60,754 bases of DNA. It comes from an uncultured Prevotellaceae bacterium. GTDB taxonomy: Bacteria; Bacteroidota; Bacteroidia; Bacteroidales; Bacteroidaceae. Shown piece after piece: positions 6,892-13,460 of this stretch (positions are counted from its first letter, which is position 1; each line of letters opens with the position of its first letter). The stretch is taken from contig ONJJ01000017.1 in NCBI GenBank assembly GCA_900318115.1, positions 1-60,754 of the forward strand, in the 5' to 3' direction. The translations under genes were made by a program, and so were the position numbers. Under the pieces are notes generated by a model. That model saw only the letters and a list, made by a program, of their open reading frames with translations, had not been told where the DNA came from and ran no database searches.

Positions 6892-8886
6892 CTAAAGGGC
6901 TTCCAGCATGGCAATAATGCGGTCGCCGAGTGCGCTTTTGCGCTCGATATGTGCCTGCACCTCGGTCACGAAGGGATTTGTTTCGAATTCGCCACGCACC
7001 TGCTCGAAATCGGCCTCTGCCGTCTGGCGGCTGGCGCCGTCGAATCCGAAGCCCGTGCGGGCCGAGAGGGAGAACTCCTTCTTGGCATCGGCATAGAGCA
7101 TCTGGTCGAGGTCCACGACGCTCTGCTTCCACTGGCGGACGATGGCGATGAGGTCCTCGATGGTGATGCGGTCGTCGGTGAGGTGATAGTACTGGAGAAT
7201 CTTCTCGTAGGCCCAGGTCCACTCGAGTTCGTAGTATTCTGCATGGATGGCACGCAGGGCAGCGTCGAACTCCTGCTGGCTGCCCACGCGACCTGCCTCG
7301 ACATCGTCCAGCAGGGCGTTGACGACCTCCTTCGGAGCGATGAGTCCAGCCAGGTCCACCCAGATGCCGAGTCCCTGCTTCAGGGTAGGTTTGATACCTT
7401 CGAGGACGCTCTCCACGCTGCTGCAGTCGATCTTCTCCAGGCGGGAGATGAGCGAGTTGCCGAGGAACTTCTGGATGCCGATGCGGTAGAGCTGCTGGCC
7501 GCGGTGCAGGGCGCTGTTGCTGATCTTGGCGCTCTGGTAGGCATAGACGTCGCTGGTGGCGCCGGAGAGTTGCTCCAGTTCCTCAAGGATGTGGAGGCCA
7601 TGGAGCATCTTGTCGATGGTGTAGGGCGAGAGGAGGTTGAAGTTCACCTGATCCAGGCGGCCTTCCTTGGCGCGGCGGTCGCGCTTGGGCCACTTCTGGG
7701 CATCGCGTACGGTGCCCACGGAGCGGAGGTTGACGGCCGGAGCGAGGTAGGTCTCGCCCTTCTTCTCGATGAGGTACGAGAAGGGGAGCATGGAGGTGTC
7801 GGGGTTGGAGGTGTGACGCCCCATGACGAGGGAGAAGGCTCCGATGCGGGCGGGCCAGAGGATGTAGCTGTCGCTGGAGGTCTTGGCACCGCGCTCCATG
7901 GCGCCCTGGTGGATGGGGCCGAGTTTGTACATGTGGTTGCTCTGGTTGGAGCCGGAGCCGGCGTTCATGAACGAGAAGAGGCCTGCGATGAGGAGGGTGC
8001 TCTTGTGGTGGGTGACGGTGAAGGGGCCGGCGAAGATGGCGCAGGCCTCGCCGTTCTCCTCCTGGCAGTTGCAGAAGAAGAGGCTGTCGGAGGCAGAGTA
8101 GCTGTGGCCGAGGGTGCAGGCCTGACCTACATAGACGCGCGTCAGTGTGGTGCAGTCCTCCACGGTGGAGCCGTCCTGGATGATGAAGTCGTCGGCAATG
8201 ACGCCGTAGCCGATGTGTATGGGGGCCTCGCGGCGGCTGTTCAGGGTGCCGTTCTTCAGTCGGCCGGCTCCTTCGACCTTCGCGTACGCGCCCACGTACA
8301 TATTTTTAATGTAACCGGTGTCCACAATGGTGCTGTGGTGGCGGATGGTGCCCCGGGTGGAGGTCTGCTCGGCGGCGCGCTGGGCAGCGAAGTGCTTTAG
8401 GCGGTCGATGAGCAGGGGACGATGGCGGTAGAAGGCCTCGAGGTATGCCTCGTGGGCGGTGAGGCGGTCGTGGATGGTGACCTCGCGCCCGCCGGTCTCG
8501 TTGAGCACCGCCACTTCCACTCCGTTGCCGAAGCTGGTGGGTCCGTCGCAGAGGATGATATCTACGTTCTCGATGAAGCAGTCGTTCTCGATGTCGTAGT
8601 TGGCGATGTAGTTCTTGATGTTCTCGATGCAGCAGTCGTCGCCGATGGTGACGTTGTGCAGCGTGGCATGGAAGAGTCCGGAGTGTTTGTGCATACCGCC
8701 GGGCAGTTCGAAGCTCTTCTGGAAATGGCCCAGGTGGATCTCGCCGGAGAAGCGCGTGGCGCGGATGTATTTCAGGCTGGCTTCGTCGGTGACGTAGATG
8801 GTGCTCCAGTCCTCAGCGGAGCATCCTTGTTCCTGCAGCTTGGCGACCTCTTGGGGGGTCAGTTGTCTTGTCGTGATGGATTCCAT
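6892..8886 (-). CDS. DUF4954 family protein with left-handed beta-helix (hexapeptide repeat) segments
   Basis: A 664-aa cytoplasmic protein without signal peptide, of the type called DUF4954 in Bacteroidetes and spirochaetes. The N-terminal half has hexapeptide-like runs typical of LpxA-fold acyl- and nucleotidyl-transferases (for example the stretches IGDDCCIENIKNYIAN and VGAYAKVEGAGRLKNG), and the C-terminal part is helical. I chose the ATG at 8886 (MESITTRQLTPQEV) because the longer frame would translate through the promoter box at 8915-8922. The substrate is unknown; a sugar-nucleotide-related role is sometimes assumed for the fold, but nothing here proves it. It diverges from the methyltransferase-like gene at 9000. 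Confidence 0.72.
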   Translation of the reverse strand: MESITTRQLTPQEVAKLQEQGCSAEDWSTIYVTDEASLKYIRATRFSGEIHLGHFQKSFELPGGMHKHSGLFHATLHNVTIGDDCCIENIKNYIANYDIENDCFIENVDIILCDGPTSFGNGVEVAVLNETGGREVTIHDRLTAHEAYLEAFYRHRPLLIDRLKHFAAQRAAEQTSTRGTIRHHSTIVDTGYIKNMYVGAYAKVEGAGRLKNGTLNSRREAPIHIGYGVIADDFIIQDGSTVEDCTTLTRVYVGQACTLGHSYSASDSLFFCNCQEENGEACAIFAGPFTVTHHKSTLLIAGLFSFMNAGSGSNQSNHMYKLGPIHQGAMERGAKTSSDSYILWPARIGAFSLVMGRHTSNPDTSMLPFSYLIEKKGETYLAPAVNLRSVGTVRDAQKWPKRDRRAKEGRLDQVNFNLLSPYTIDKMLHGLHILEELEQLSGATSDVYAYQSAKISNSALHRGQQLYRIGIQKFLGNSLISRLEKIDCSSVESVLEGIKPTLKQGLGIWVDLAGLIAPKEVVNALLDDVEAGRVGSQQEFDAALRAIHAEYYELEWTWAYEKILQYYHLTDDRITIEDLIAIVRQWKQSVVDLDQMLYADAKKEFSLSARTGFGFDGASRQTAEADFEQVRGEFETNPFVTEVQAHIERKSALGDRIIAMLEAL

Positions 8887-8914
8887 AATTTCGTTTTGTA
8901 AGGGATTTCGGGCG

Positions 8915-8972
8915 CAAAAGTACAGAAAATAGGCGAAACTCATTGCACTTTGACAACTTTTTCTTACTTTTG
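8915..8972. promoter_or_regulatory. Divergent promoters of the DUF4954 and methyltransferase-like genes
   Basis: On the minus strand TACTTTTG lies at 8922-8915, serving the ATG at 8886. On the plus strand TTG at 8943-8945 is followed after 19 nt by TACTTTTG at 8965-8972, serving the ATG at 9000. The plus-strand pair matches the consensus exactly; the minus-strand box lacks an obvious TTG partner. Confidence 0.6.
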
Positions 8973-8999
8973 CAGCGAAAAAAGCAGTATTTTTCGTCT

Positions 9000-9728
9000 A
9001 TGCGACTCTTCAGAAGGCCTTGGATTTGGTTGTCTCGGTTCCGTCAGCGTAAGGGCTACGGCGTTCATTCTCCCTTCGCCTACTCGTTCATCCGGGGGGT
9101 GGTATTGGAGTCGTCTGCGTACTACGCCTACGCAGACCTGGCGCACCTGCATCCGTGGTGGGTGCGCTGGTTCCGTCTCTACCCCATGCAGTGCAGGCGA
9201 CTGCTGTTCCGGTTGGCAAACTTCGCCGAGCCGCGCACGGTGGAACTGCGCACGGCAGACGAGGTGGCGGCGAGGTATGTCCGTGCCGCGGTGCCGATGG
9301 CAGAAGTGCGGCGCAAGGAGGGGGCGATACCTGGAGTGGTGCGGCGCAAGGAGGGGGGCTTGGCAGCGGTGCCTGAGGGTTCCCCCGAAGGAGAGGTGCT
9401 GCGCAAGGAGGGGGCGATACCTGGAGTGGTGCGGCGCAAGGAGGGGGGCTTGGCAGCGGTGCCTGAGGGTTCCCCCGAAGGCCGGGAGGCAGCGGACTTC
9501 GTCCTCGTGGGCAAGGAGCGGCTGGAAGAGGCGGCAGCGGTGGCCGCGAGGATGCCAGAGCGGGGGATGTTGGTTTGCGAGGGGATTCACGAAAGCCGCC
9601 GTGCCAAGGAAATCTGGCGCACCATCCGCGAAGCACCTCACACGGGCGTGACCTTCGATCTCTACACCTACGGCGTCGCCTTCTTCAATCCCAAATTGCA
9701 CAAGCAGCACTACAAAGTGAACTTCTGA
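9000..9728 (+). CDS. Methyltransferase-like conserved Bacteroidales protein carrying a REP-containing 90-bp tandem duplication
   Basis: A 242-aa protein of the Bacteroidales family that starts RLFRRPWIWLSRFR.RKGYG.HSPFAY and ends in a VTFDLYTYG.AFFN...KQ.Y.VNF block; it is often called SAM-dependent methyltransferase, although no clear GxGxG motif is visible here. The ATG at 9000 was chosen because the promoter box ends at 8972. Between about residues 103 and 162 the sequence changes to two near-identical 30-residue units rich in RRKEG and VPEGSPEG, encoded by a 90-bp direct repeat. The frame is kept through it. Outside this insert the family pattern is intact, so the insert looks like a recent in-frame expansion. 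Catalytic activity is uncertain. Confidence 0.65.
   Translation: MRLFRRPWIWLSRFRQRKGYGVHSPFAYSFIRGVVLESSAYYAYADLAHLHPWWVRWFRLYPMQCRRLLFRLANFAEPRTVELRTADEVAARYVRAAVPMAEVRRKEGAIPGVVRRKEGGLAAVPEGSPEGEVLRKEGAIPGVVRRKEGGLAAVPEGSPEGREAADFVLVGKERLEEAAAVAARMPERGMLVCEGIHESRRAKEIWRTIREAPHTGVTFDLYTYGVAFFNPKLHKQHYKVNF
9368..9391 (+). repeat. REP-like element, copy 1
   Basis: A 24-bp element beginning GGTGCCTGAGGG and ending CCCCGAAGG. It can fold into a short hairpin: GCCT pairs with AGGC-like sequence, GGG with CCC, with G/A mismatches between. Other copies are at 9458-9481, 10876-10899 (reverse) and 11013-11036. Confidence 0.8.
9458..9481 (+). repeat. REP-like element, copy 2
   Basis: Identical to copy 1; it lies 90 bp further on as part of the tandem duplication and is followed by C, completing the AGGC side of the hairpin. 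Confidence 0.8.
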
Positions 9729-10178
9729 GGGCAAAAAAACATTTTTTCACTCAGAAAAGACCGCACCTGTCACTTCGTCACAGCTCGTCACAACGTAAGT
9801 CACAACCTATCACGTTGTATATGAGTGATTTCTGGTGATTTGTGACGAAGTGACGTGACTTCTACTATCTCTCACGCGCCTGCGCGCGTATGGGAGCCGC
9901 ATGGCTTCGTCGGCCTCTTGCTTGTCCATCCACTCTCTCCCCCTGGCCCGCGCTGCTCCTACAGCAGGGTGCAGGGGACGATGGACCACGATGCAGGGGG
10001 CGATGGACCACGGTGCAGGGGGCGATGGACCACGATGCATGGGGCGATGGATCACGATGCATGGGGCGATGGATCACGGTGCATGGAGCCACACAGCAGG
10101 GTGTGTGGACGAGTACCAGCCGTGGTACAGGCAGATACGTGCGGACGTGTGGGCAGACACGTGCGGACGTGGTTGTTC
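9729..10178. other. Non-coding repeat-rich spacer between the methyltransferase-like gene and the transposase
   Basis: About 450 bp with no credible gene. It holds a 14-bp perfect inverted repeat (GTCACTTCGTCACA at 9769-9782, TGTGACGAAGTGAC at 9841-9854) with several further GTCAC words between the arms, the 22-bp minisatellite at 9979-10086, and a further 22-bp-spaced pair (GCAGAYACGTGCGGACGTG) starting at 10131 and 10153. Open frames here exist only because the repeats lack stop codons. Confidence 0.8.
9979..10086 (+). repeat. 22-bp minisatellite, 4.9 copies
   Basis: Five consecutive units starting at 9979, 10001, 10023, 10045 and 10067, each beginning CGATGGAYCACGRTGCAKGG. The unit length is not a multiple of three. 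There are no spacers, so this is not a CRISPR array. Confidence 0.95.
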
Positions 10179-11627
10179 CTAAGGTGTGTTCTGCAGGAGG
10201 GAGGAATAGTTCAAGATGCGGGCCTCGGTGGTCTGGCAGATGTCGCGGGCGAGGTCGTTGAGGGCGTGGAAGCGGCCGTAGTCCGAAGAGGCGTCGAGTG
10301 ACCAGGGAGCAAGGATCAGCAACCGCCCCTCGGCGCAGGCGTAGAAGCGGCCTTGTGGCGGCTTCCAGAACTCAGTGATGGGTTCCTTCTGGAGCAGGAT
10401 GAGGGGCAGGCGGGCGGCCAGGGCTGCTGCTACGACTCCCTGCTCGCCCTTGGAGATACCAGGGGTCACGAGCACGGCCCCTTCCTCCGCCGACCGCAGC
10501 AGTCGGGCTTGTTCGGCGGCGTACTCGGGGGTGAGGTGCGTGGGGGTTCCTTGGGCGTTCTTCCGATGGAAGAAGACTTGCACTTTATCGGGGTTCTTCA
10601 GGAGGAAGAGGTTGCCGAAGGCGGCGTATTCGCGATTGTGGATCCAGAGGTGAAGGCGCCGTTGCATGACGGTGGGGCACTCGCGGCGGATGATTGCGCG
10701 GAGGGGGTTCTCGTCCATATAGCGGCGGATGTTATCCAGCATTCCTTCGCGCTTGATGATGCGGTCGTGGTAGCCGGACTCGAAGAGGAGGGGGTACGAG
10801 GCCCAGTGGGCCGGGTAGAGGGCGCCTGCTGCTGCCCTGCCTTCGGGGGTCGACCTGCCTTCGGCCGCCTTCCTGCCTTCGGGGAAACCCTCAGGCACCA
10901 CTGCCCCGACCGGAGCGGTGGAGGAGGGCACGGGCATGGAGGGAGAAACGGGGGAGACAGGGGCGGAGGTGGAGGACAGCAAGGCAGAGGAAGAGGCAGG
11001 GGTCGTTGCTGTGGTGCCTGAGGGGTTCCCCGAAGGCAGGGAAGGCGCGACAGGAGCGGAGGGGGAGGGCGCGGGCATGGAGGGAGAAACGGGGGAGACG
11101 GGCGCGGTGGCGGAGGGCAGGGCGGAGGAGGGGGAGGGAGCGGGCATGGAGGGAGAAACGGGGGAGGCGGGCGCGGTGGTAGACGGGCAGGCAGGGAGGC
11201 CTCGTTCCTGGTCCATTAAGCGCCACCAAGCACGGGAGCAGCCGGTTTTGAAGCCACCGAGGACAAAGCCCAGGTGCTTCCCTTTCGGCAGGGGTTCTTC
11301 GACCCTCAAGAGGAGGTGGAGGTGGTCGGGCATCATCGCCACTCGCCACACCTTCACCATTGGATAATGCTTGGTGATCTTTGGGATCTCTTCTTCAAGG
11401 ATGGACTTCCCCAGGGGCGACAACACCAGCCTCGGGGCGTCGTAGCTCCCACGAGGTGCCTTTGAGGTGCCTTCGAGATGCCCAAAGAGAGGACGGCGCC
11501 CGGCAGTGATCAGCGTTATCATGAAGATACCTTTTTGGTTATAGTCATGCCATTGGGCACGGCGATGCTGCTGGTGCTTCACTTCTTCGGGGACATATCC
11601 CCGCGCTTGCATCTCTTCCTTGGTCAT
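10179..11627 (-). CDS. REP-associated tyrosine transposase (Y1/HUH, IS200-like) with a split catalytic domain and a Rossmann-like C-terminal domain
   Basis: A 482-aa HUH single-strand endonuclease of the TnpA-REP (RAYT) type. The fold starts at HDYNQKGIFMITLITAGRRPLFG; the metal-binding HUH motif is MPDHLHLLL (His102, His104); the candidate nucleophile Tyr286 is in FESGYHDRIIKREG, followed by LDNIRRYMDENP. Between them residues about 143-268 are a Pro/Ser/Ala-rich insert with repeated SPVSPSMPAPSPS units and two REP-like elements. Residues about 325-482 form a second domain (GNLFLLKNP, then GAVLVTPGISKGEQ and LPLILLQKEP) that resembles a Rossmann-type DprA/LOG-like fold; that resemblance is my inference. 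It starts 15 nt after the preceding gene's stop, so it is probably co-transcribed with it. Whether the split domain still cuts DNA is unknown. Confidence 0.82.
   Translation of the reverse strand: MTKEEMQARGYVPEEVKHQQHRRAQWHDYNQKGIFMITLITAGRRPLFGHLEGTSKAPRGSYDAPRLVLSPLGKSILEEEIPKITKHYPMVKVWRVAMMPDHLHLLLRVEEPLPKGKHLGFVLGGFKTGCSRAWWRLMDQERGLPACPSTTAPASPVSPSMPAPSPSSALPSATAPVSPVSPSMPAPSPSAPVAPSLPSGNPSGTTATTPASSSALLSSTSAPVSPVSPSMPVPSSTAPVGAVVPEGFPEGRKAAEGRSTPEGRAAAGALYPAHWASYPLLFESGYHDRIIKREGMLDNIRRYMDENPLRAIIRRECPTVMQRRLHLWIHNREYAAFGNLFLLKNPDKVQVFFHRKNAQGTPTHLTPEYAAEQARLLRSAEEGAVLVTPGISKGEQGVVAAALAARLPLILLQKEPITEFWKPPQGRFYACAEGRLLILAPWSLDASSDYGRFHALNDLARDICQTTEARILNYSSLLQNTP
10876..10899 (-). repeat. 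REP-like element, copy 3 (inside the transposase gene)
   Basis: On the minus strand it reads GGTGCCTGAGGG then TTTCCCCGAAGG, with one base different from copy 1. It encodes VPEGFPEG of the transposase insert. Confidence 0.8.
10931..11180 (-). repeat. Direct repeats encoding the Pro/Ser-rich insert of the transposase
   Basis: An identical 26-bp block starts at 10931, 11072 and 11141 (it begins CGGGCATGGAGGGAGAAACG on the plus strand), with spacings of 141 and 69 bp, both whole numbers of codons. The flanks are related too. The repeats encode the SPVSPSMPAPSPS units. Confidence 0.85.
11013..11036 (+). repeat. REP-like element, copy 4 (inside the transposase gene, opposite orientation)
   Basis: It reads GGTGCCTGAGGG then GTTCCCCGAAGG on the plus strand, opposite to copy 3. 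In the transposase frame it encodes LPSGNPSGTT. Confidence 0.8.
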
Positions 11628-11642
11628 CAGGCGTTCCTTGTC

Positions 11643-13460
11643 TTATTCCACCTCCAAGGCACGCAAGGCACGCAGGAGACGGTCGTTGTCGGCGGTGTCG
11701 CGCACGGCGATGCGGACGTAGTGCTTGCCGGCGAAGGCCTTCTTGTAGCCGCAATCCTTGATGAGGATGTTGTCGCGCTTGATGAGGAGGATGGCGAGTT
11801 CGGACGAGGTGAAGCGTTCGGTGACCTCGCAGAGGAAATAGTTGGCCTCGGAGGGGATGACGCGCAAGAAGGAGATCCGGCGTAGCGCGGCCTCGAAGCG
11901 CTCGCGCTCCTCGCGGAAAAGGCGACAGGCGCGGTGGTAGTCGGCCTCGTACTTGCCGTAGATCTGCATGTAGTACTCGCCGAAGGAATTGATATTCCAG
12001 ATGCTGACCTCGTGGCGGATGGTCCGGATGAGGTCGCCGTCGGCCGTGGCCAGCACGCCGAGGCGCAGGCCCGGCACGCCGTAGCTCTTGGAGATACTCT
12101 TCATGACGATGAGCGAGGGATGCTGACGCAGGAGGTCGTCGGAGAGCAAGGTGCCGTCCGGATAGCAACGGGCGAAGTCCACGAAGGACTCGTCCACCAA
12201 CAGACGCACGCCACGCGCCTCGCACCAGGCGAGCAGCCGCAGGACGTCGGCCCGCGGGATGTAGTTGCCGCTGGGGTTGTCGGGGTTGATGAGCAGAAGC
12301 ATCGCCAGGTCCTTGTCGGCGTAGAACGCCATGAGGTCATCGGCGGTGTAGGCGAAATCGGCGTTGGCGGGGGTGTAGATGACCAAGTCGGCGGGTGCCT
12401 TGCGGTTAGGGTATTCCTCAAAGGTGGGATAGACCACCCCGAGGCGTCCCGGCGTTTGCTCCATAACCACCTTGATGAGCTCTGCAGCCCCGTTGCCGGG
12501 CACCACGAGGTCCGGCGAGAGGCCCAGGTACTTCCCTGCCAGCAGGGAGTTGACGGCCATCCCGGAAGGATACTGCGTCAGCAGGGCATCGAAGCTGGCC
12601 ATCAGTTCTGACTTCAGGCGAGCCGAGGGGAAGTAAGGATTCACGAGGTAGTTGAAATCCAACATTCCCGGGAAGCGCCAGAAGCCGCCGAAGCGGCGGG
12701 AATACGAGCGCCAGAGGTCCTCGCCTTCGGCGAAGAGCGTCTCGGCGATGTCCAGGTCCTGGATGTCATCGATTTCGTACCAGTGCTCGTCGCCGATGGG
12801 CAGGGCTTTCAGCTCCGTTCGGTCGAGGAATGTGAGTACGCGCAACACTTGTTCGTAGTACTCGTTGTCGCCCACGGTTTTCATATAGACCTCGAGGAAG
12901 GGGACATATTTCGTGCAGAGGAAGTCGCGGCTGAACTTATAGACGTTGACGGTCTTGTAGTACTGGTCGCGCTCCTCGTAGTGGAAACTGCTCTTGGGCA
13001 CGAAGCTGGTGATGCAGAGGTCCTCGTCCAGACGAACCATGGTGCCGTCCATCCACGACTGGTACTTCGCCACGAGGGCGAGGTTCGGCCAGGGGTTGTC
13101 CAGCAGTAGCGGGAAGAGCCGTTCGTCGAGGATGAGGTCACTCTCGATGAGCAGGGTGTCGTCCTCCATGAGTTGCTGACGTGCCAGGGCGAGGGAGTAG
13201 ATGTTGTTGGTGCGGTCGTAGAGCTCATTCTCCACATACTCGATGTTCAGGTCCGGATAGCGGTCACCGATGTGGCGACGCAGCCCGTCGGCCTGATAGC
13301 CCACGACGATAACCACCCTGGTGAGGGGCAAGGCCTGCAACTGGGTGAGCATCCGGTCGATGAGGCGCACGCCTCCGACCTCGATCATGCACTTGGTCTG
13401 GTTGCGGGTGAGTTCGCCCAGTCGGCGTCCCATGCCCGCGGCAAGGATTATCGCTTGCAT
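11643..13460 (-). CDS. Bifunctional cytidylyltransferase-aminotransferase (LicC/PntC-like nucleotidyltransferase fused to a class I PLP aminotransferase)
   Basis: A 605-aa cytoplasmic fusion. Residues 1-about 240 are a sugar-nucleotide-type nucleotidyltransferase: MQAIILAAGMGRRLGELT is the CTP-binding loop with the signature G-x-G-x-R-L, followed by NQTKCMIEV with the conserved Lys and by ESDLIL with the metal-binding Asp. Residues about 255-605 are a HisC/CobD-like aminotransferase with LINPDNPSGNY, the Asp in LLVDESFVDF and the PLP lysine Lys458 in SISKSYGVPGLRLG. Similar fusions are known for PntC, which makes CMP-2-aminoethylphosphonate; activation of phosphocholine or phosphoethanolamine is the alternative. 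A licD-family gene starts divergently 150 bp away, supporting a role in adding a charged group to surface glycans. No PEP mutase gene lies in the window. Confidence 0.78.
   Translation of the reverse strand: MQAIILAAGMGRRLGELTRNQTKCMIEVGGVRLIDRMLTQLQALPLTRVVIVVGYQADGLRRHIGDRYPDLNIEYVENELYDRTNNIYSLALARQQLMEDDTLLIESDLILDERLFPLLLDNPWPNLALVAKYQSWMDGTMVRLDEDLCITSFVPKSSFHYEERDQYYKTVNVYKFSRDFLCTKYVPFLEVYMKTVGDNEYYEQVLRVLTFLDRTELKALPIGDEHWYEIDDIQDLDIAETLFAEGEDLWRSYSRRFGGFWRFPGMLDFNYLVNPYFPSARLKSELMASFDALLTQYPSGMAVNSLLAGKYLGLSPDLVVPGNGAAELIKVVMEQTPGRLGVVYPTFEEYPNRKAPADLVIYTPANADFAYTADDLMAFYADKDLAMLLLINPDNPSGNYIPRADVLRLLAWCEARGVRLLVDESFVDFARCYPDGTLLSDDLLRQHPSLIVMKSISKSYGVPGLRLGVLATADGDLIRTIRHEVSIWNINSFGEYYMQIYGKYEADYHRACRLFREERERFEAALRRISFLRVIPSEANYFLCEVTERFTSSELAILLIKRDNILIKDCGYKKAFAGKHYVRIAVRDTADNDRLLRALRALEVE

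Follow-up and report, generated by a model that had tools for sequence, protein, structure and literature searches.

Can a transposase gene hold its own presumed recognition hairpins within its coding sequence, and can such hairpins be passed on to the genes of unrelated proteins? This question is raised by a locus in a stretch of 60,754 nucleotides (nt) from an uncultured Prevotellaceae bacterium (contig ONJJ01000017.1, hereafter called the window), which is contig 55 of a 3.33-Mb genome (G000) that is 87% complete. The named records nearest to this genome are Bacteroidaceae/Prevotella assemblies, for the most part of ruminant origin, and its genus is probably a rumen group of that family, represented here by metagenome bins. 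A first-pass annotation had described a REP-associated tyrosine transposase (RAYT) that is surrounded by, and contains, its own elements resembling repetitive extragenic palindromes (REPs), with four copies in both orientations, two of them in a neighbouring methyltransferase-like gene. The four copies are exact and lie at 9369+, 9459+, 10876- and 11014+, two in an open reading frame (ORF) of 242 amino acids (9000-9728, plus strand) and two in the transposase ORF of 482 amino acids (10179-11627, minus strand). The analysis reported here leads to an answer to which we give a probability of about 70%: the window holds a REPtron of unusual build, in which a RAYT-like HUH/Y1-DprA enzyme carries its presumed recognition hairpins inside its own coding sequence and spreads them.

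The gene at 10179-11627 (minus strand) encodes a RAYT-like HUH/Y1 transposase with an internal linker, fused to a C-terminal DprA-like domain, as judged from the family model NF047646, homologue profiles, and fold matches. The score against NF047646 (REP_Tyr_transpos) is 32.1 bits (E 8.9e-8), below the curated cut-off of 80, and the gene is, therefore, named RAYT-like; to this extent the first-pass identification is supported. All ten aligned homologues match this model (best E 9.2e-12), and seven of the ten also match Pfam Y1_Tnp, weakly; the ORF itself gave no match in a Pfam search at E <= 10 or in a PDB sequence search at E <= 1. The DH[LI]H motif and the tyrosine of YMx[ED]NP are conserved in the ten RAYTs of alignment A2, as in HUH enzymes with a single tyrosine (Y1), and the structural model shows the Y1 HUH fold, with matches to the IS608, ISDra2 and IS200 transposases and to TnpA-REP (4er8). 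The HUH core spans approximately 11199-11537 (minus strand), with the DHLH motif at 11316-11327; D101, H102 and H104 are invariant in A2, and, in the model, IS200-family transposases can be aligned from residue 31 onwards. The codon of the presumed catalytic Tyr303, within YMDENP, lies at 10719-10721 (minus strand), and this residue is invariant in A2 and in A3 (the window together with 52 of the 124 C halves that were usable); its catalytic role is suggested by the Y motif of the family. The C-terminal part (about residues 322-466; 10230-10664, minus strand) adopts, by fold comparison, the DprA Rossmann fold and is, by analogy, a putative binder of single-stranded DNA, just as binding and cleavage of the hairpin would be expected from the relatives of the transposase. 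RAYT-like matches with 30-32% identity were also found in Kiritimatiellae bins from ruminants (L453, L455, L457), and the RAYT-DprA fusion may thus reach beyond Bacteroidota.

Between the HUH core and the tyrosine helix lies a hypervariable linker (10800-11195, minus strand, ends approximate), delimited on alignment A2, which carries an inverted pair of hairpins. The forward copy (10876-10898, minus strand) is sense to the transposase gene and encodes VPEGFPEG, and the inverted copy (11014-11036, plus strand) is antisense and is read there as PSGNPSGT. This arrangement recurs in related genes. Close RAYTs, defined by at least 45% identity in both halves, were compared in two sets without overlap (32 + 35 = 67); the first leaves out the unusable RAYT loci L082, L132 and L154, and the second was taken from 80 loci in named records, 8 of them unusable and 11 duplicating the first set. 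A sense hairpin lies in the linker of 57 of the 67 close RAYTs, and an inverted pair in 34. The first set counts 28 sense hairpins, 22 inverted hairpins and 20 pairs in the inverted-then-sense order, against means of 1.1, 2.5 and 0.02 in 300 codon shuffles, where ordered pairs reached a maximum of 1; the corresponding counts in the second set are 29, 15 and 14, against 0.75, 2.4 and 0.005 in 200 shuffles. The hairpin has the form GT[GT]-N8-N4-N8 and sits shortly 5' of the C half, often with its inverted partner upstream. Hairpin density is 9.3 per kb in the linkers versus 0.62 per kb in the remainder of the same loci (first set), and linker length, which varies from 27 to 480 nt, is divisible by 3 in 76 of 78 homologues. 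In three loci (L079, L106, L109), hairpins flank the RAYT gene or sit near its 3' end, additionally or instead; L079, L093 and L109 share a position of inverted hairpins near the RAYT 3' end, about 525 nt into the C half, which is perhaps an alternative site of the pair.

That these repeats are hairpins is indicated by comparison: the stem arms covary between species, the stems differing and the pairing being kept. Covariation in alignment A1 is inflated by the choice of its hairpins for pairing, and the arm-shuffle test was, therefore, repeated without that choice. The motif GTK[CT]C, not chosen on pairing, occurs within 100 nt before the C half in 56 of the 67 close RAYTs, and, of 8 possible standard pairs, the 45 unique pairs of arms form 6.5 on average, versus 5.03 when arms are shuffled among genes (standard deviation 0.14, maximum 5.49 in 2000). 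Elsewhere in the close RAYT genes, the same motif is followed by at least 7 pairs in 0 of 213 cases. Folded singly as DNA, three window copies reach only -3.1, -6.4 and -5.8 kcal/mol (z -0.2, -2.1 and -1.6), and the evidence for structure is, thus, comparative rather than energetic. The element is, as first proposed, a REP-like hairpin with G.A mismatches; in place of a GTAG/GTGG foot it has GT[GT] followed by C or T (GTGC in the window copies), a constancy that is a matter of choice in the 50 hairpins of the model described below, which were searched with that start. Covariation and dispersal together agree with the short, imperfect palindromic hairpin in many copies that typifies GTAG-type REPs, whose GTAG/GTGG foot is not found here.

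Is the element confined to the locus? In the window, the pattern CCTGAGGGNNNCCCCGAAGG has four perfect matches (9372+, 9462+, 10876-, 11017+) and one three-mismatch match elsewhere, against a mean of 0.41 matches at up to three mismatches (maximum 3) in 100 dinucleotide shuffles. Two of the copies (9369-9391 and 9459-9481, plus strand), both sense and in frame in the 242-residue host ORF and encoding AVPEGSPEG, are not independent, because they lie within a 90-bp direct tandem duplication whose units (9302-9391, with the element at its end, and 9392-9481, plus strand) are 98% identical. Across the genome, a 23-mer with a 3-base wildcard finds 6 matches at up to two mismatches, all of them exact (reversed control 0), of which two, C40:117920- and C71:25916-, add to those of the window. 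Plain 20-mer counting at up to three mismatches was discarded, as its 27 matches against 12 in the control were largely due to chance, and was replaced by a hairpin covariance model. Given the exact 23-mers and the 14 matches of this model in the genome at E <= 0.1, the element is not restricted to the four positions of the locus.

The covariance model, built from 50 linker hairpins, was searched in 101 genomes of the genus at E <= 0.1, and genomes were taken as RAYT-positive when they held a match at E <= 1e-10; both searches are assumed to cover the same 101 genomes, as the listed handles agree. It matches 45 of the 101 genomes, with 403 matches in total, copies inside RAYTs included. At least one match is present in 41 of 58 RAYT-positive versus 4 of 43 RAYT-negative genomes. 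Since RAYTs themselves carry hairpins, the fairer comparison is that of genomes with at least 5 matches, which account for 19 of the 58 positive versus 0 of the 43 negative genomes, and, when genomes are divided by the presence of a close RAYT, for 16 of the 32 that have one versus 3 of the 69 others. Furthermore, over 9 genomes that hold a close RAYT, the copies resemble the hairpins of their own RAYT beyond expectation (permutation p 5e-5), several genomes sharing one hairpin type. Dispersed REP-like hairpins are, thus, associated with the RAYT, as had been anticipated for the element, with exceptions in G018, G067 and G135, which hold only distant RAYTs, and in G141, on account of which a strict rule that RAYT and hairpin are always cognate was rejected. 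A second hairpin class, GTGCCCTCGCC-GTCN-GGCGAGGG, which may belong to another RAYT, was observed in G010 (L188-L200), where its classified copies are intergenic, and once in the genome of the window (L206, G000:C31:80931).

Where the dispersed copies lie was determined in 12 genomes, picked from the 101 for high copy number. Of their 112 + 162 matches, part was classified, skipping RAYT-internal copies: 85 of 94 (2 duplicates and 7 weak matches left out) and 120 of 128 (8 duplicates left out), with the tandem copies of the window gene counting as one more. Genes were called with a codon-usage script of our own rather than a standard gene finder; on this basis, 122 of these 206 copies are coding and 84 intergenic, although some of the latter sit within long open frames and could be coding as well. 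Among the 122 coding copies, 107 are sense in one phase, 2 are sense in another and 13 are antisense; counted per gene, 81 of 91 are in the main sense phase. Coding copies prevail in G000, G018, G019, G040, G055, G146 and G067. Copies in frame within coding sequence, held to be unusual in the first-pass annotation, are, therefore, common in several of these genomes and not limited to the window, and the predominantly extragenic location typical of GTAG-type REPs is seen in only 4 of the 12 genomes. The main-phase copies encode [TA]VPx[GA]SPxG, or [VA]-[TA]-V-P-x-[GA]-S-P-x-G in its extended form, in which the two variable residues change together in the way that pairing of the bases requires (E-E, D-S, S-E, G-P, V-T, A-A), with a mutual information of 1.12 versus 0.18 when shuffled (maximum 0.40). 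Many coding copies lie in linkers rich in Pro, Ala and Ser. Partial repeats such as VTVPEGS-VTVPEGSPEG are frequent, which suggests repeated insertion at, or slippage beside, older copies. A protein from the genome of the window, whose sequence resembles TatC, has two variant copies (AVPEGSSEG and AVPESSPEG) in its C-terminal tail (L207, G000:C72:11000-15100, near 1969). In G141, a single open frame of 3999 amino acids (L308, G141:C53:22000-34000) holds four element copies, all antisense.

Stop codons were rejected as the cause of this frame lock, given that only one of the unit's six frames contains a stop (both types tried); the binomial test against 1/5 gives 2e-45. Bias in the orientation of insertion is, by itself, insufficient too, as antisense copies are more common among co-directional intergenic copies (12 of 39, with 27 sense) than in coding genes (8 of 91, with 83 sense; p 0.003). 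This difference makes a selection filter the likely origin of the sense, single-frame coding copies. The antisense peptide PSGEPSGT, nevertheless, looks as harmless as TVPEGSPEG, and a bias of insertion, therefore, stays a candidate.

Some of the host proteins were identified through solved structures as AckA (acetate kinase), LigA (NAD-dependent DNA ligase), AsnRS, IleRS and GcvT. When AckA, LigA, AsnRS and IleRS are aligned to their solved homologues, the alignment has a gap or break at the element or next to it. Orthologues without the element reveal the size of the gain. Between fixed anchors in ackA, G055 and G019 have 48 nt and G018 has 60, versus 24 in the six other genomes that span the site, while in ligA, G018 has 48 nt versus 24 in five others and 21 in one (the rows of G015, for both genes, and of G003, for ligA, do not cover the site, and G029 has no ligA row). 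In net terms, 24 nt were added to ackA in two genomes and to ligA, and the frame is, therefore, kept.

The gene adjoining the RAYT tells a similar story. Its ORF, which has no Pfam family at E <= 0.001, is matched in 51 of 61 genomes of the genus (its own included). In the orthologue on contig C2 of G043, residues 1-108 and 164-242 of the query fall on adjoining bases, and residues 109-163, which hold both copies, are missing; the missing segment corresponds to 165 bp (9324-9488, plus strand, ends approximate), as located by protein match and DNA alignment, and its flanks show about 80% DNA identity between the two genes. The G043 gene shares its contig with a RAYT whose C half is 90% identical to that of the window, and whose linker contains almost the same hairpin as that of the window, once in sense and three times in inverted orientation. 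As this syntenic orthologue has no such segment, sequence comparison indicates that the copies in the neighbouring gene were either gained in the line of the window or lost in that of G043.

These observations can be joined in a mechanism. Among HUH Y1 enzymes, those of the IS200 group act next to hairpins, where they cut and join single strands. The TnpA_REP of Escherichia coli is described as cutting at CT beside the REP (PMC8266576). Because of its likeness to both, the RAYT of the window may be inferred to cut and join DNA as well. The inverted hairpin pair, placed in a tolerant linker between the HUH core and the catalytic tyrosine, would serve as resident substrate and donor; the enzyme would bind the hairpin on single-stranded DNA, possibly assisted by single-strand binding of the DprA-like domain, cut beside it, and paste single units elsewhere. 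Insertions into loops and linkers could survive, since the frame is kept and five of the six unit frames are free of stops. The sense, one-frame excess would then arise through selection, perhaps with some orientation bias of insertion, and tandem duplication would expand some copies, as in the gene adjoining the RAYT. A probably mobile DNA element would, in this way, add short peptides to proteins.

A bolder extension, which we hold only tentatively, makes the REP family protein-coding by habit, with the HUH-DprA transposase spreading codon-multiple hairpins into housekeeping proteins and the lock on strand and frame stemming from the insertion mechanism and not only from selection, for example if insertion were aimed at the transcribed or the lagging strand, or at a codon-phased site. 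If this were true, DNA base pairing would show as amino-acid covariation in dozens of unrelated proteins.

Several findings weigh against a REPtron run by the RAYT of the window. Transposition itself is deduced and not observed, and sequence models score this RAYT below curated cut-offs. Distant RAYTs are mostly without the hairpin (first set, n = 46: 5 sense, 6 inverted and 3 ordered pairs; second set: 0 sense copies in 26), which is, therefore, not a trait of the wider family. The genome counts are not corrected for kinship, 4 RAYT-negative genomes hold 6 matches, and G018, G067 and G135 reach 31, 56 and 15 matches with only distant RAYTs (in assemblies that are 80-91% complete). The RAYT hairpin of G141 averages 8.1 mismatches from the copies in the same genome, and is hence not cognate to them. 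Most classified copies are intergenic in G010, G124, G135 and G027, and the coding copies of G141 vary in strand and frame, with 4 in the main sense phase, 1 in another sense phase and 8 antisense. Insertion boundaries are imprecise, as the flanks of 92 copies show a conserved stretch of about 30 nt (GTTACNGT[TG]-hairpin-[TC]) versus a net gain of 24 nt, and the alignment of GcvT to its solved homologue has no clean gap at the element.

How far do these points favour other explanations? The hairpins might be mobile and yet be spread by another enzyme, such as a distant RAYT of the same genome, or by recombination, the window-type RAYT being no more than a frequent host gene. With up to 8 RAYT matches per genome, other candidate enzymes are at hand, and both the copy-rich genomes devoid of a close RAYT and the mismatched hairpin of G141 fit this explanation. 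It would leave unexplained, however, why the inverted pair occupies one place in 34 of 67 close versus 3 of 72 distant RAYTs, and why copies match the hairpin type of the RAYT in their own genome, and it is, on balance, rather improbable. A second possibility, decidedly less probable, is that selection acts on the peptide [TA]VPx[GA]SPxG, which would function as a linker or processing motif, the DNA hairpin being a by-product. The single frame and strand of 107 of 122 coding copies and their frequent location in Pro/Ala/Ser-rich linkers are what such a peptide would predict; the covariation of its variable residues according to base pairing, the 84 of 206 copies called intergenic and the different peptides encoded by the inverted copies of RAYT linkers are not.

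The hairpins could also act as RNA, in terminators, mRNA stability or RAYT autoregulation, with their spread being secondary, since hairpins inside genes would be transcribed and one class in G010, whose stem is GC-rich, is mostly intergenic. We regard this as very unlikely: an Rfam search of 8800-11700 gave sub-threshold matches only and none at gathering score, the 92 tabulated flanks contain no T-run, and more than half of the classified copies lie in open frames of unrelated genes. Chance similarity within GC-rich linkers of low complexity, to which the repetitive nature of linkers and the tandem origin of the copy at 9459 might lend some colour, is hardly credible in view of the codon shuffles, the arm shuffles, the RAYT-negative genomes and the orthologues without the element.

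The preferred explanation, a REPtron with in-gene hairpins, can be placed among known systems. With the RAYT/TnpA_REP REPtron of E. coli (PDB 4er8), it shares the HUH and single-tyrosine Y1 fold, dispersed hairpins and inverted pairs, but it differs by hairpins inside the gene (there mainly flanking), by a foot of GT[GT] then C/T (there GTAG), and by the C-terminal DprA-like domain. The inverted doublet in the RAYT linker is comparable to a REPIN, whereas most dispersed copies look, by inspection, single or arranged in direct tandem, with doublets seen in L228 and L190. REPs inside a transposase gene have already been described for TnpA_REP subclass 2.4, which has REPs in frame within tnpA_REP, between the HuH and Y motifs (PMC6006769). 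The two are alike in this position, in the frame being kept, in the G-C bottom of the stem and in the reported occurrence in Bacteroidetes (PMC6006769). The signature motifs given there for subclass 2.4, NH[IFV]H, WQ and YIxNNP, are replaced here by DH[LI]H, LF[EQ] and YMx[ED]NP, and, because these motifs and the GTAG foot are absent, the family of the window is not placed in this subclass. The term DprA has 0 occurrences in the main text of that paper.

Intragenic REPs and palindromic inserts are known from elsewhere as well. In-frame copies of GTAG and CGTC REPs occur in housekeeping and DNA-metabolism genes according to PMC3733652; these REPs are described there as mostly intergenic, in contrast with the largely coding, one-frame copies reported here. 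The 25-nt inverted repeat just 3' of the host gene (window 9769-9854; 80% complementary, 36 nt apart) and the 22-bp tandem repeat array between host gene and RAYT (GTGCAGGGGGCGATGGACCAC-like, about 5 units, window 9965-10118) are further repeats of the locus. Protein-coding palindromes have already been described in Rickettsia. The Rickettsia and Wolbachia palindromic elements (RPE and WPE) are, according to PMC2996958, in-frame inserts into non-structured segments of unrelated proteins; the likeness is one of kind only, as the present element is linked to a RAYT-like gene with the same hairpin and belongs to another phylum. In the literature searched, which covered few subscription papers, no RAYT-DprA fusion was seen among the papers listed, and no report was found of a REP family tied to a single coding frame, of Prevotella REPs with a RAYT, of in-frame palindromic insertions in Bacteroidales, or of the frame and orientation in which Rickettsia palindromic elements are read. 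Within the reach of these searches, two features are new: the fusion of a RAYT to a DprA-like domain, and a REP-like family located largely in coding sequence, in one frame.

To our knowledge, how REPs spread in cells and why some of them enter genes is still open. The fusion of a RAYT with a DprA-like domain suggests a link between REP processing and the handling of single-stranded DNA. Moreover, a single genus brings together the element, the enzyme that probably serves it and recent insertions in proteins of the essential type, and it includes carrier as well as non-carrier species; mobility, the choice of targets and the cost of small in-frame inserts are, therefore, testable in this genus.

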